Assembly: GCA_030141605.1 (NCBI GenBank)
Contig: JAQGDQ010000694.1
Location: 47,343-111,342, forward strand
Length of the DNA: 64,000 bases
Direction of reading: 5' to 3'
Source of the DNA: Tubiluchus corallicola
Lineage: Eukaryota > Priapulida > Priapulimorpha > Priapulimorphida > Tubiluchidae
Both the position numbers and the translations under genes were made by a program. Numbering within the stretch: position 1 is the first letter of the stretch; every line of letters starts with the position of its first letter. A model generated the notes under the pieces. That model was not told the origin of the DNA and ran no database searches. It saw nothing but the letters and a program-made list of their open reading frames with translations. Positions 60,901 through 64,000 of the stretch are shown here, piece after piece.

Positions 60901-63040
60901 TTCATTTATGTCTTCCCTTCCCACATGATCTTCACCGGCTCTTCTTTTCAGGTGTCCATACCATCACAATCATCCCAATACCATCGCGTTCCTCTGACAT
61001 TATTCTTTCTAATTTTATCTCTTCTTGTTATTCCCACCATTCATCTCAACATCCTCATCTCCACCACACCCATTTTCTTCTCTTTGTTAGAGAAGCTGCT
61101 TCCAGCCCATAGATTAGAGCGGGTCTGACCACGTCTTTGTGGACTTCACCTTTAAGTCTCACCGACTCGTTCATAGAAGGTTTTGGCGCAGTTTTTACAG
61201 GCGGATGCCCTTCCTGACCCTAACCCTCCCTATTTATCCGGGCTTGGGACCGGCACTGAGTTGGGCTGGCTTGCCCCCCCCCCAGTGGCTAGGATAAATT
61301 CGGTGAATATCACAGATACATGTAAACTAGTGGTAGCATTTACAAAAATTAGTGCACTGAAGCTTCTTTTGTCATTGTAACATATTCGGTGTTAATGAAC
61401 ATTGAAAATCAGCATTTTACAAAATTTTAAAATCTGTGACGTATTTTTAATACAGTTTGGCTCACTGTAAACTGGAAATCAGCACTTAGTGAACAAGGCC
61501 TACTTATGGGTGTGGCAAGACTGGGTTCTTACTCGTTATAAAGGCTAATACTGCAATATGAAACAATGAGCTATTCTGAATATATCTTCCTTCAGTGGAA
61601 GAAATGGCCAGAATCAGTACAGCAAACAAAACAAAGAGCACTCATCTATTCATTTACTAATCAGGCTCAGCACTGCCTAACTTTTAGCTGCTAGAATCAC
61701 TTAATTATCTCCTTCACCCTCATGCACATATAAGTCAATTACTCAAATACACTAGACGAACAAAATAACAGAGTGGTCACGGCGTATGTTTCACGACCAA
61801 AGTTAAGCAAAGTCGCAGCTGGTCGGTAACAGCATGTGTCTAATAATGATCCTTAGACCCTCCTTTTACAGATGAAGAGAAGTCATTTGAAATATGTAAC
61901 AACAGTGGATATTCAGAAAGTTACTATAGAACCCTGTAATAAATTTAATGTAGGAAAAACTTACTGTTCCTTCGGCTAGAGCTGAAATGACATTTCCTAG
62001 CGCTGATAAAGATTTGTTGATATTCTTGGCTTCATCCAAGACCAGACCTTCAGCTCCAGTCTTGCTAACCTACAGGAAAAATTTTGATATGTCATGACAC
62101 ACATTATAAGCATTCTATTCACTATAAAAAATTCCAAATCAAACTTTTTTAAACGTTTTGGTACAAAATAAGATATCAGCATTACAAAATTATTCCAAAT
62201 CAAAGTATTCAGTATAACACGAGGTATCAGCATTAGCATTATAAAAATTCCGAAACCAAACTTTTCGGTACAAAATGAGATATTAGCATTACACATGAAT
62301 GAATCTTTACTTGCATTTTGATTTCGTTTTTCACTTATGTGGTTTTGCGATCATATTTTTGTTTTTATTATTTGTCTGTATTAGTCTTTCATTGCTGATG
62401 GCCTTTCTTCTAATATTCTTATACTATCATACTATATACTATCAACCACTATTTGGGCTATTGACTCGTCCACAATGCTTAGGTCATAGAAAGTAACTTC
62501 GGCAAGCTGCAAGAGCTGGCTAGCACCAAGAAATGTAGGCAAAAATCAACTACTGATGCCACTCAGAGATCATTGTTCCTTTGTTCTGGTGAACAAAATG
62601 GCTTCTACAAGGTACACTCGTCTCACTAATGAGTTAATGATTTCAAAAAGACTCGAAATGTGTATCATCTTGGGGCCGTCAAAGATCGCCCATATTGCAG
62701 AAACAGGGACAGTTGACATGAACAGGGTTTCTCTTTTTTTGTGAAAATATCTACAAGAATATTAAGTTATGCAAGAATAATCTAGAATTGGTAATACATA
62801 TGTCCTCTATGGTGCAAGTAAAACTGACTTTTAGCTAAAAATCTTGTCTAAATGGTAAAACGTAGGTGAAAATGAACATTTTTCATTTATTTAATAAATT
62901 TCATTTATTTACTTTTAGTATAAATGAATTCAGATTGACAACCACAAAATGAGAAAATGAACATAATTCGAGCTGCAACAAGTACTTTCAACAAATTTAC
63001 CTTTTCACTTCCAGCCAAATCAACTAGGTACAGCTTGCCA
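42748..63040 (-). CDS. KIF5: Kinesin-1 heavy chain (KIF5), 3' 17 exons; motor N-terminus absent
   Basis: Plus-end microtubule motor carrying vesicles, mitochondria and mRNPs. Exons in coding order: 63040-63001, 62069-61965, 60700-60552, 58933-58785, 57019-56829, 55312-55157, 53430-53311, 52204-52055, 51292-51101, 49592-49475, 48525-48363, 47608-47507, 46125-45993, 45457-45350, 44973-44837, 44676-44494, 42916-42748: 2365 nt, all GT-AG, phases consistent. Seen in order: switch [15 protein letters not shown], motor end [20 protein letters not shown], neck linker and neck [19 protein letters not shown], hinge, coiled-coil stalk, [20 protein letters not shown], cargo-binding coil [17 protein letters not shown] and the tail autoinhibitory motif as QVAKPIR (usual QIAKPIR). 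The P-loop and switch I should lie upstream, but 63041-64000 is occupied by a palindrome, so the locus may be rearranged or misassembled there. Confidence 0.96.
43079..43526. mobile_element. TTAA-flanked MITE, second family
   Basis: Ends CCCTTTCCATCCC and, in reverse complement, CCCTTTCATACCC, each bordered by TTAA (43075-43078, 43527-43530). The word ccacgggatac occurs at both 43216 and 43500. 448 bp, piggyBac-type target. Lies in the last KIF5 intron. Confidence 0.85.
44494..44676 (-). CDS. KIF5: KIF5 in-window exon 16 (tail with autoinhibitory motif)
   Basis: Acceptor tgtcttcag; [20 protein letters not shown], then [15 protein letters not shown], a Pro run and [12 protein letters not shown]. 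Ends GC before a consensus donor GTAAGT. Reading through the donor gives Ala then TAA (44490-44492), a classical short kinesin-1 ending. Confidence 0.95.
44837..44973 (-). CDS. KIF5: KIF5 in-window exon 15 (end of coil)
   Basis: Acceptor ttattttag; [20 protein letters not shown] then [20 protein letters not shown], ends two bases into Arg, donor GTGCGG. Confidence 0.96.
45350..45457 (-). CDS. KIF5: KIF5 in-window exon 14 (cargo-binding coil)
   Basis: Acceptor ttttttccacag; an acidic stretch [12 protein letters not shown] then [20 protein letters not shown], 36 codons, donor GTAACT. Confidence 0.96.
45613..45924. mobile_element. TA-flanked MITE (TIR about ACTCATATCTCGGTTT)
   Basis: Left end TACTCATATCTCGGTTTGTC, reverse complement of right end CACTCGTATCTCGGTTTTAC, TA on each side; 312 bp. 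The middle (45725-45810, ccgctagttggcgggccgtc) resembles part of the CAGGGATGAGAA hAT family, so it is either chimeric or an insertion. Confidence 0.7.
45993..46125 (-). CDS. KIF5: KIF5 in-window exon 13 (light-chain/cargo-binding coil)
   Basis: Acceptor ctttcacag; [20 protein letters not shown] then [19 protein letters not shown], almost identical to vertebrate KIF5; donor GTACAA. Confidence 0.96.
46521..47149. mobile_element. TTAA-flanked MITE (piggyBac-like), copy 2
   Basis: Right end identical in type to 37808-38426 (ccttataaggg then TTAA at 47150-47153). The left end is degenerate (CCTATATAGG after TTAA 46517-46520). Contains a run of 16 C at 47091-47106. Shares outer thirds with copy 1 but has a different middle. 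Lies in a KIF5 intron. Confidence 0.85.
47507..47608 (-). CDS. KIF5: KIF5 in-window exon 12 (coil 2)
   Basis: Acceptor tttttttacag; completes Asp, then [20 protein letters not shown], ends two bases into Met, donor GTAAGT. Confidence 0.95.
48088..48175 (+). repeat. Dispersed repeat family A, fragment
   Basis: aaagcaaaaccagaccc and tttaaaatattgaaaggaaa match the start of the 35205 copy. Confidence 0.65.
48363..48525 (-). CDS. KIF5: KIF5 in-window exon 11 (coil 2)
   Basis: Acceptor ttcttctgcag; [20 protein letters not shown] then [16 protein letters not shown], ends two bases into Asp, donor GTAAGA. Confidence 0.95.
48843..49269 (-). mobile_element. hAT MITE (TIR CAGRGGTGTGCAAA), copy 1
   Basis: 427 bp; ends CAGAGGTGTGCAAA and TTTGCACACCCCTG (with gcccgcgggccgc inside the right end), flanks aggtaaca and agctaaca, an 8-bp duplication with one mismatch. 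Same family and internal sequence as 59819-60310. In a KIF5 intron. Confidence 0.9.
49475..49592 (-). CDS. KIF5: KIF5 in-window exon 10 (stalk)
   Basis: Acceptor tgttttcag; [20 protein letters not shown] then [19 protein letters not shown], ends one base into Glu, donor GTACGT. Confidence 0.95.
49763..50313. mobile_element. Mariner-like MITE (TIR CAGGGTGTCYCA)
   Basis: Ends CAGGGTGTCCCAGAAGTCAC and, in reverse complement, CAGGGTGTCTCAAAAACCAC, with TA on both sides; 551 bp. CAGGGTGTCYCA ends are characteristic of mariner. No transposase. Confidence 0.88.
50528..51053. mobile_element. hAT-like MITE (TIR CAGAGYCTCTTTTAACG)
   Basis: Left end CAGAGTCTCTTTTAACG, reverse complement of right end CAGAGCCTCTTTTAACG: 17 bp with one mismatch. 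Flanks atgtattc and cagcattc agree at only five of eight positions, so the target duplication is decayed. 526 bp. Confidence 0.7.
51101..51292 (-). CDS. KIF5: KIF5 in-window exon 9 (stalk)
   Basis: Acceptor acctttag; contains [20 protein letters not shown], one of the best-conserved stalk blocks; 64 codons, donor GTACAT. Confidence 0.96.
51409..51927. mobile_element. TA-flanked MITE (TIR GGTTTTAYACGTYAAATG)
   Basis: Ends GGTTTTATACGTTAAATG and, in reverse complement, GGTTTTACACGTCAAATG, TA on each side. The words gtcaaatgtagac and their inverse recur inside (51430-51600 and 51800-51915), so much of the element can fold back. Confidence 0.8.
52055..52204 (-). CDS. KIF5: KIF5 in-window exon 8 (stalk)
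   Basis: Acceptor ctttctag; [20 protein letters not shown] then [19 protein letters not shown], 50 codons. The donor GTTTCC is weak beyond GT. Confidence 0.94.
52431..52838 (+). repeat. 34-bp minisatellite, about 12 copies
   Basis: Unit ccaggcattatggcagagga then aagaagccaaaaat. Because 34 is not a multiple of three and the unit has no plus-strand stop in any frame, all three plus frames stay open and give overlapping repeat peptides. It lies in a KIF5 intron on the antisense strand and is not a gene. Confidence 0.95.
53311..53430 (-). CDS. KIF5: KIF5 in-window exon 7 (stalk)
   Basis: Acceptor cataacag; [20 protein letters not shown], 40 codons, closely matches vertebrate [20 protein letters not shown]; donor GTAAGT. 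Confidence 0.96.
53523..53997 (-). mobile_element. hAT MITE, CAGGGATGAGAA family, copy 2
   Basis: 475 bp with perfect 12-bp ends CAGGGATGAGAA; flanks share taactg (six bases visible). Inverted relative to copy 1 at 30397. In the KIF5 intron next to exon 7. Confidence 0.9.
54560..54805 (+). mobile_element. LINE-like 3' end with (AACTA)-type tail
   Basis: A conserved-looking AT-rich 3' segment ends gtgataataataaactaaac then tgaactaaacta repeats. No coding part remains. Confidence 0.45.
55157..55157 (-). promoter_or_regulatory. Splice donor GTAACG after KIF5 exon 6
   Basis: The last exon base is at 55157; the donor continues at lower coordinates. It fits the GAG/GTAACG junction and fixes the exon end. 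Confidence 0.6.
55157..55312 (-). CDS. KIF5: KIF5 in-window exon 6 (stalk coil 1)
   Basis: Acceptor ttaattag; [20 protein letters not shown] then [20 protein letters not shown], 52 codons, donor GTAACG. Confidence 0.96.
55438..55892. mobile_element. TA-flanked MITE (TIR CCGTATTTTCCCGTGTATAA)
   Basis: The first 29 bases, starting CCGTATTTTCCCGTGTATAA and continuing GAGACCCTT, are perfectly inverted at the right end; TA on both sides (55436-55437, 55893-55894). Near the right end a second inner copy of ggtctcttatacac is present. 455 bp, in a KIF5 intron. Confidence 0.9.
56100..56270 (+). mobile_element. LINE-like 3' end with (ACTTA)n tail
   Basis: gttagatacagagtggaaat followed by aaataaacttaacttaactt, a simple-repeat tail of about four units as at the end of a non-LTR element. 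Preceding sequence (55915-56100) may belong to it. Confidence 0.5.
56481..56830 (-). repeat. 20-bp minisatellite made of splice-donor copies, about 17 units
   Basis: On the KIF5 strand each unit is AGGTCAGTCAGTAGTTTGTT. The first unit starts at the true donor of exon 5 (AAAAG then GTCAGT at 56828) and every following unit repeats AG-GTCAGT. A short irregular patch (56641-56690) interrupts the array. Confidence 0.96.
56829..57019 (-). CDS. KIF5: KIF5 in-window exon 5 (hinge 1 region)
   Basis: Acceptor ctttctccag; [12 protein letters not shown], then a low-conservation Ala/Ser/Thr-rich hinge ([10 protein letters not shown]), then [20 protein letters not shown]. The donor GTCAGT is the first unit of a 20-bp minisatellite. 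Confidence 0.95.
57140..57629 (-). mobile_element. hAT MITE, CAGGGATGAGAA family, copy 3
   Basis: 490 bp; 12-bp perfect ends and a perfect 8-bp target duplication acaaaata (57132-57139, 57630-57637). About 120 bp from KIF5 exon 5. Confidence 0.93.
57893..58135. repeat. About 50-bp minisatellite, five copies
   Basis: Unit gtggattactggaagactag then taactagttttcattagtcc and a C run of five to seven. Length differences are confined to the C run. Contains the self-complementary word actagtaactagt. Confidence 0.95.
58785..58933 (-). CDS. KIF5: KIF5 in-window exon 4 (neck linker and neck coil)
   Basis: Acceptor ctttttttag; completes Arg, then [19 protein letters not shown] and a charged neck coil ending EEELSRWRN; donor GTATGT. 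Confidence 0.96.
59819..60310 (-). mobile_element. hAT MITE (TIR CAGRKGTGTGCAAA), copy 2
   Basis: 492 bp; ends CAGGTGTGTGCAAA and TTTGCACACCCCTG with a perfect 8-bp target duplication gtttacag (59811-59818, 60311-60318). Same family as 48843-49269 and same orientation. In a KIF5 motor-region intron. Confidence 0.94.
60552..60700 (-). CDS. KIF5: KIF5 in-window exon 3 (motor end)
   Basis: Acceptor taccttgcag; [20 protein letters not shown] then [20 protein letters not shown] and LMFGQ, ends two bases into Arg, donor GTATGC. Followed by an intron holding a hAT element. Confidence 0.96.
60806..61300 (+). mobile_element. Unclassified dispersed repeat starting at (TTC)n
   Basis: After a (TTC)7 run (60806-60828) comes cctatgcagggccgccgttg and, near the end, gcggatgcccttcctgaccc, tatttatccgggcttgggac and cggcactgagttgg. 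These GC-richer words stand out from the AT-rich intron and are familiar from dispersed repeats in animal genomes, but I cannot assign a class with certainty. Confidence 0.5.
61765..61835 (+). pseudogene. 5S rRNA-like fragment
   Basis: aagttaagcaaagtcgcagc then tggtcggtaacagca matches the internal promoter region of animal 5S rRNA (AAGTTAAGCAACGTCGGGCC, TGGTCAGT). Preceded by tcacggcgtatg, similar to the 5S start region. Too short and diverged for a working gene; a 5S-derived SINE head or a pseudogene. Confidence 0.5.
61965..62069 (-). CDS. KIF5: KIF5 in-window exon 2 (loop 11 to helix 4)
   Basis: Acceptor tttcctgtag; [20 protein letters not shown] then [15 protein letters not shown], 35 codons, donor GTAAGT. 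Nearly identical to vertebrate KIF5. The acceptor lies at the left limit of the palindrome arm. Confidence 0.96.
62070..62958. repeat. Palindrome left arm (889 bp)
   Basis: The reverse complement of 63113-64000. By eye the arms agree at roughly 95 percent or better with scattered substitutions and small indels (for example cataGaaagtaaC versus cataAaaagtaaA near 62486). The left limit is the acceptor of KIF5 exon 2. The sequence is intronic; the 65-residue hydrophobic frame in each arm (62299-62496 and 63574-63771) is the same sequence read twice. Confidence 0.96.
62939..63010. repeat. 72-bp direct repeat, copy 1
   Basis: caaccacaaaatgagaaa through aaatttaccttttcactt; recurs at 63043-63114. 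Covers the end of KIF5 exon 1, its donor and the first part of the intron. Confidence 0.93.
63001..63040 (-). CDS. KIF5: KIF5 in-window exon 1 (switch II), 5' edge uncertain
   Basis: Encodes (S)[13 protein letters not shown], the switch II strand with DLAGSE; donor GTAAAT. The 5' edge falls exactly where a 72-bp duplicated intron segment joins (minus strand gtggttg then agtggcaag). The AG there could serve as an acceptor, but the exon may instead be truncated by the rearrangement, since relatives encode further residues upstream. Confidence 0.75.

Positions 63041-64000: not shown

Follow-up and report, generated by a model that had tools for sequence, protein, structure and literature searches.

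Does the large palindrome at the end of a Tubiluchus corallicola contig record a break in the motor domain of the kinesin-1 heavy chain gene (KIF5), or does it record the way in which the contig was put together? The window analyzed here is a stretch of 64,000 nucleotides (positions 47,343 to 111,342 of contig JAQGDQ010000694.1, hereafter C2171, in assembly GCA_030141605.1), and the inverted repeat at its end adjoins one KIF5 exon and encloses a fragment of another. Our data indicated that the palindrome most likely reflects a fold-back in the assembly or the library rather than a broken gene. The contig probably ends in a chimera, in which two divergent KIF5 copies, A and B, are joined head to head by a fold-back that is absent from the chromosome. 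The anatomy of the palindrome, its position at the contig end, and the recurrence of such structures at other contig ends were observed directly; we infer that the two copies are allelic and that their join is missing from the genome.

The inverted repeat is present in the sequence and lies far beyond chance. An alignment of the arms paired 62070-62961 with 63108-64000 (22 mismatches and a single internal gap, located in a run of T), and the self-comparison of the window returned the same match as one 893-column alignment (97.4%, 22 mismatches, 1 gap) and as two inverted pieces (I1, 671 nt, 98%; I2, 228 nt, 95%). Among the eight inverted self-matches of at least 60 bases in the window, none was longer, and no other match above 110 bases had its arms within 1 kb of each other. 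With arms measuring 892 and 893 bp around a 146-bp center, the original prediction of 889- and 888-bp arms flanking 154 bp was correct to within a few bases. Its claim that the arms differ by a few percent was upheld in number but not in distribution: all 22 mismatches, 13 of them transitions, fell within 62478-62957, in the inner 484 bases of the arms, whereas the outer 408 bases, which on the right arm are the last 408 bases of the contig, showed none (P about 1.4e-6 under an even spread). One mismatch (62957) lies inside the 7-base overlap at the fold. The components of the palindrome are as follows.

62070 to 62961, unstranded: left arm, KIF5 intron copy A, identical to the reverse complement of the right arm at 870 of 892 aligned bases.
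62070 to 62477, unstranded: outer 408 bases of the left arm, the same as the last 408 bases of the contig, with the first mismatch at 62478.
62711 to 62980, unstranded: dispersed repeat in the intron adjoining the exon, with 70-79% matches on six other contigs and a short 83-88% match on a seventh.
62939 to 63010, plus strand: first copy of a 72-bp direct repeat (copy A), comprising intron and the exon end.
63001 to 63042, minus strand: truncated switch II exon of 14 residues, followed by the donor GTAAAT; a Leu codon may extend it to 63045.
63043 to 63114, plus strand: second, direct 72-bp copy (copy B), with 3 differences from copy A, ending at the fold.
63108 to 63114, unstranded: fold point TTCACTT, which lies in the direct copy and also pairs with the arm at 6 of 7 bases (one mismatch); its role as a fold point is putative.
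63108 to 64000, unstranded: right arm, inverted copy B, ending with the contig, located by both the self-match and the arm alignment.

A transposon with terminal inverted repeats was considered and rejected for the palindrome, as the dispersed repeat at 62711-62980 spans only the inner part of the arm and leaves the outer 641 bases unexplained. Across the whole window, no structured RNA matched Rfam at gathering scores.

As predicted, the center holds only the 3′ part of the switch II exon, although one additional Leu codon may belong to it. It also holds the direct repeat listed above (69 of 72 positions identical), which the original prediction left unmentioned. Read along the plus strand, the intron of copy A leads into the switch II exon, of which the last 42 bases are present, followed by a step of 104 bp back to copy B, a fold at about 63114, and B reversed. 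A TTG codon spans the first junction and is compatible with the Leu found in KIF5, so that the two sides may have as many as 3 nt in common. Before the fold, the 72-bp copy and the right arm can be compared over just 18 bases, at which all copies agree; judging from their similar divergence from A, both probably represent copy B. The arrangement of the center is consistent with two jumps between two diverged copies, of which the second would be a snap-back.

The position of this structure within the contig altered the meaning of its outer limit. C2171 is 111,342 bp long, so base 64000 of the window is the last base of the contig, and the inverted right arm runs out exactly there. The left flank alone is present, and the contig stops inside the right arm, so that the far flank lies beyond the visible sequence. 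It had been argued that a homology limit coinciding with the window edge would be chance and that the inversion continued into at least one coding exon; this argument falls away because the window ends where the contig ends, and for the same reason sequence past 64000 is unreadable. The exon expected to lie inverted beyond that point is the following.

61965 to 62069, minus strand: KIF5 exon of 35 residues, matched by tblastn at 85%, with the acceptor CTGTAG and the donor GTAAGT recognized by eye.

In the assembly searched (343.5 Mb, 2,344 contigs), this exon, which includes the 16-residue motif named in the prediction, gave a single 97% match (13 of 13 candidates scored), and the remaining eight matches, at 57-68%, were to other kinesin sequences. 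With no second copy found in the assembly and no sequence after 64000, the inverted exon copy that had been foreseen was left unsupported. No second copy of the arms was found either (8 of 8 candidates scored). The arm differences resemble single-nucleotide polymorphisms (SNPs), yet a separate allelic contig was found neither for the arms nor through the 3.5-kb flank, for which the best 40 of 3,045 candidates scored were dispersed repeats only, nearly all of them one repeat. The start of C1500, a small contig of 13 kb, had no allelic counterpart among the best 40 of 3,814 candidates scored.

Similar palindromes recurred elsewhere in the assembly. We sampled 51 other contig ends (37 starts, including that of C2171, and 14 right ends; 1.8-3 kb each), which were not chosen at random, and counted palindromes with arms of 200 bases or more and a gap of 600 or less. 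Terminal palindromes were present at 3 of these 51 ends, and each had an arm reaching within 4 bases of the contig end, as in the window.

Contig C1556, 1-4184: terminal palindrome matching itself at 90% identity and starting at base 1 (longer stretch).
Contig C208, 1-938 with 1235-2174: terminal palindrome, 97.8%.
Contig C877, 4-734 with 1172-1903: terminal palindrome, 99.3%.
Contig C1506, 1-452 with 1522-1996 (1518-1996): inverted repeat at the contig start, 90%, arms about 1.07 kb apart.

The last of these was left out of the count, having been chosen through a search match. When only the outer 1.8 kb was considered, the size of the interior tiles, the count was 2 of 51, since the center of the C1556 palindrome lies deeper. 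The interior control yielded no palindrome in 118 overlapping tiles, comprising 67 tiles of the window (1-61,200) and 51 from 22 interior loci. The profile of C1556 is like that of the window, with about 500 near-identical outer bases (2 mismatches and 9 gap columns) followed by 4-21 mismatches per 100, and among these palindromes the outer-identical profile is common to these two only. Inverted matches below the thresholds were left uncounted: 217 bp at 82% in C300 (691 bases between the arms, not terminal), 60 bp in C5, 63 bp in C349, and 118 bp in C1583. As separate observations, a repeat of about 680 bp flanks the center of the C1556 palindrome (2202-2881 and 1264-1911) and has dozens of copies elsewhere (82-86% for one arm, 78-82% for the other), and the C1506 repeat shows repeated inner matches and carries, between its arms, a copy of the 510-bp repeat described below.

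The gene itself was examined on the minus strand, where eight tblastn pieces of KIF5 lie in order from 63045 to 52067, covering residues 223-573 of a typed KIF5B-like query at 39-94% identity. Conserved switch II, the later motor exons, the neck, and the stalk follow one another in order; the two full motor exons adjoining the breakpoint matched at 85% and 83%, and the later pieces at 39-64%. Within the first exons, canonical splice sites were recognized by eye at the switch II donor, at both sites of the next two exons, and at the acceptor of the fourth. The eight aligned pieces contained no stops. A whole-query search counted one TAG and one TAA inside the KIF5 matches at C2171:102493-102657 and C2171:100623-100778; we take these to lie probably at exon edges, as the tblastn pieces of the same exons, starting or ending one codon further in, have no stop. 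The upstream exons were sought with residues 46-223 of the typed query at E up to 10, and none of the 47 matches was of KIF5 grade (48 of 48 candidates scored): the longer matches reached 30-52%, and the higher ones were just five scraps of 22-29 residues at 54-64%. The whole-query search gave no match above 51% within residues 1-222, the higher ones beginning at residue 212 or later (best 76 of 95 candidates), and it recovered five downstream KIF5 exons in C2171 at 53-85%, serving as its own control. Residues 1-222, with the P-loop and switch I, thus appear to be missing from the assembly at KIF5-grade identity and not displaced, contrary to the earlier expectation, as none was found relocated. 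The claim that the palindrome breaks the KIF5 motor domain was likewise not supported, with eight downstream pieces free of stops and a palindrome that could fit one intron. The gene looks selected, which suggests that the animal carries a complete KIF5. A palindrome that is real could also sit wholly in one enlarged intron, with the truncated exon copy skipped and the intact exon beyond the contig end.

In the chimera that we favor, the contig would follow copy A of KIF5, probably one haplotype, to the middle of the switch II exon; there it would switch to copy B, probably the second haplotype, re-entering the sequence about 104 bp earlier, before folding back and retracing B in the opposite direction to the point where assembly ends. 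The fold-back could stem from the assembly graph, from a read, or from a molecule produced by amplification. In the chromosome, KIF5 would proceed past the switch II exon to the upstream motor exons, and these would have been lost to a gap. The case for this reading is made by the recurrence at contig ends, the arms running out there, the absence of the far side, the lack of a second copy, and the well-kept gene; a break within an exon of the only KIF5 copy found is unlikely because the animal presumably has such a gene intact. One alternative in the original prediction, that of two divergent haplotypes placed head to head by the assembly, was supported by the arm at the contig end and the recurrence, with SNP-like differences that would fit it. 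The differences are allele-like rather than raw long-read error because 22 substitutions stand against 1 indel. Read error is expected to be rich in indels and to extend along the whole arm. This makes it improbable that the palindrome is a simple fold-back read, consisting of a template and its own complement, with base-calling errors as the only differences: the differences are substitutions, the outer 408 bp are clean, and the direct copy carries 3 differences of its own. Such reads are nevertheless common in Oxford Nanopore data and more so with multiple displacement amplification, according to the available portions of three reports (PMC12870357, PMC6218980, PMC13265396).

The main rival, which we regard as clearly less probable than the chimera, is a genuine inverted duplication produced by replicative template switching, with the inverted arm inside an enlarged KIF5 intron and with an intact switch II exon and the upstream exons located past the end of C2171. 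Lacking an acceptor, the truncated exon copy would be skipped, and the outer arms would be kept identical by gene conversion from arm to arm. The two jumps within about 110 bp, the 6/7 homology at the fold, and the up to 3 nt (TTG) at the other junction resemble template switching, and divergence dominated by substitutions, with an identical tract beside a diverged one, fits an old duplication with a conversion tract. However, the assembly searches turned up no contig carrying the far side, all of the contig-end palindromes seen run out at the contig end with none complete with both flanks, and no interior example occurred among the 118 tiles. With contigs of up to 2.2 Mb in this assembly, a real palindrome of 1.9 kb whose arms diverge by several percent would presumably not have halted it. 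It is unlikely, in our estimation, that a template-switch rearrangement in the genome joins two diverged KIF5 intron copies in cis and in head-to-head orientation, gene conversion keeping the outer half of the arms identical, and that similar palindromes are dispersed over the genome at the sites of assembly breaks. Several observations weigh against the chimera. Genuine palindromes also break assemblies, so arms at contig ends are expected under a real duplication too, and the allelic copy that would prove B to be an allele was not found in the assembly. No explanation is at hand for the perfect match of the outer 408 bp or for the contig ending precisely on an intron-exon boundary (the splice acceptor). 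The contrast between ends and overlapping interior tiles is weak and only suggestive, the interior control being small (about 138 kb including overlaps). The palindromes of C208 (3 mismatches in the outermost 100 bases) and C877 (3 in the first 700) are without the outer-identical profile.

Published systems offer several comparisons, drawn here from the available portions of the reports. Fold-back reads are described as making up about 0.55-0.6% of Oxford Nanopore genomic reads and as virtually absent from a tested PacBio HiFi sample (PMC12870357), multiple displacement amplification is described as yielding many more fold-back or palindromic reads (PMC6218980, PMC13265396), and inverted duplications in a gorilla Y assembly were put down to amplified DNA (PMC6218980). 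Such chimeric reads, like the structure here, repeat one locus in inverted orientation on either side of a short center (PMC12870357, PMC6218980, PMC13265396), whereas the arms here differ by substitutions in the inner half and are accompanied by a third copy in direct orientation. Palindromes of homologous blocks appear in the 2013 Adineta vaga and the Folsomia candida assemblies (PMC5916493, PMC5490193, PMC7953838); the springtail palindromes were presented as real (PMC5490193), and warnings were given that assembly method or scaffolding error can create such palindromes (PMC5916493, PMC7953838). There, as here, divergent homologous copies lie head to head on one contig, but those blocks are collinear and span multiple genes, whereas the palindrome here involves less than 1 kb of intron and is interrupted where the contig stops. 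Replication errors that produce small inverted triplications (PMC13334657) also leave copies in both orientations at one site, with a mechanism that may be comparable, but the return to forward orientation is not visible here as the contig stops. The published warnings about fold-back reads, amplified DNA, and doubtful palindromes in asexual animals, as far as these portions go, fit the chimera.

Other features of the window were observed apart from the palindrome. A repeat of about 510 bp lies in a KIF5 intron (59809-60323) and has at least 39 further copies at 91-94%; its ends hold GTGTGCAAA and TTTGCACACCCCTG and are reminiscent of a non-autonomous hAT element, for which the repeat is a candidate. 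A dispersed repeat of about 410-440 bp occurs at 30386-30823 and, in inverted orientation, at 53572-54006 and 57219-57629 (94-96% identical). At 52424-52835, a 34-bp tandem repeat (12 copies, 93% matches) contains two long open frames of 147 and 163 codons that run through the same repeat peptides, because 34 is not a multiple of 3. An open frame on the minus strand (19533-20366) carries RING and WWE domains, a make-up that we take to be that of an RNF146-like ubiquitin ligase. On the plus strand, a 198-amino-acid open frame (11657-12253) resembles by eye the C-terminal part of a reverse transcriptase of a long interspersed nuclear element (LINE); it had no Pfam match at E 0.001.

Collectively, the palindrome is best read not as a real genomic feature but mainly as a warning. 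As terminal palindromes recur at sampled contig ends of this assembly, gene models near contig ends, including KIF5, are not to be taken as broken or rearranged. If the structures were real, they would form a set of palindromes for studying conversion between arms.

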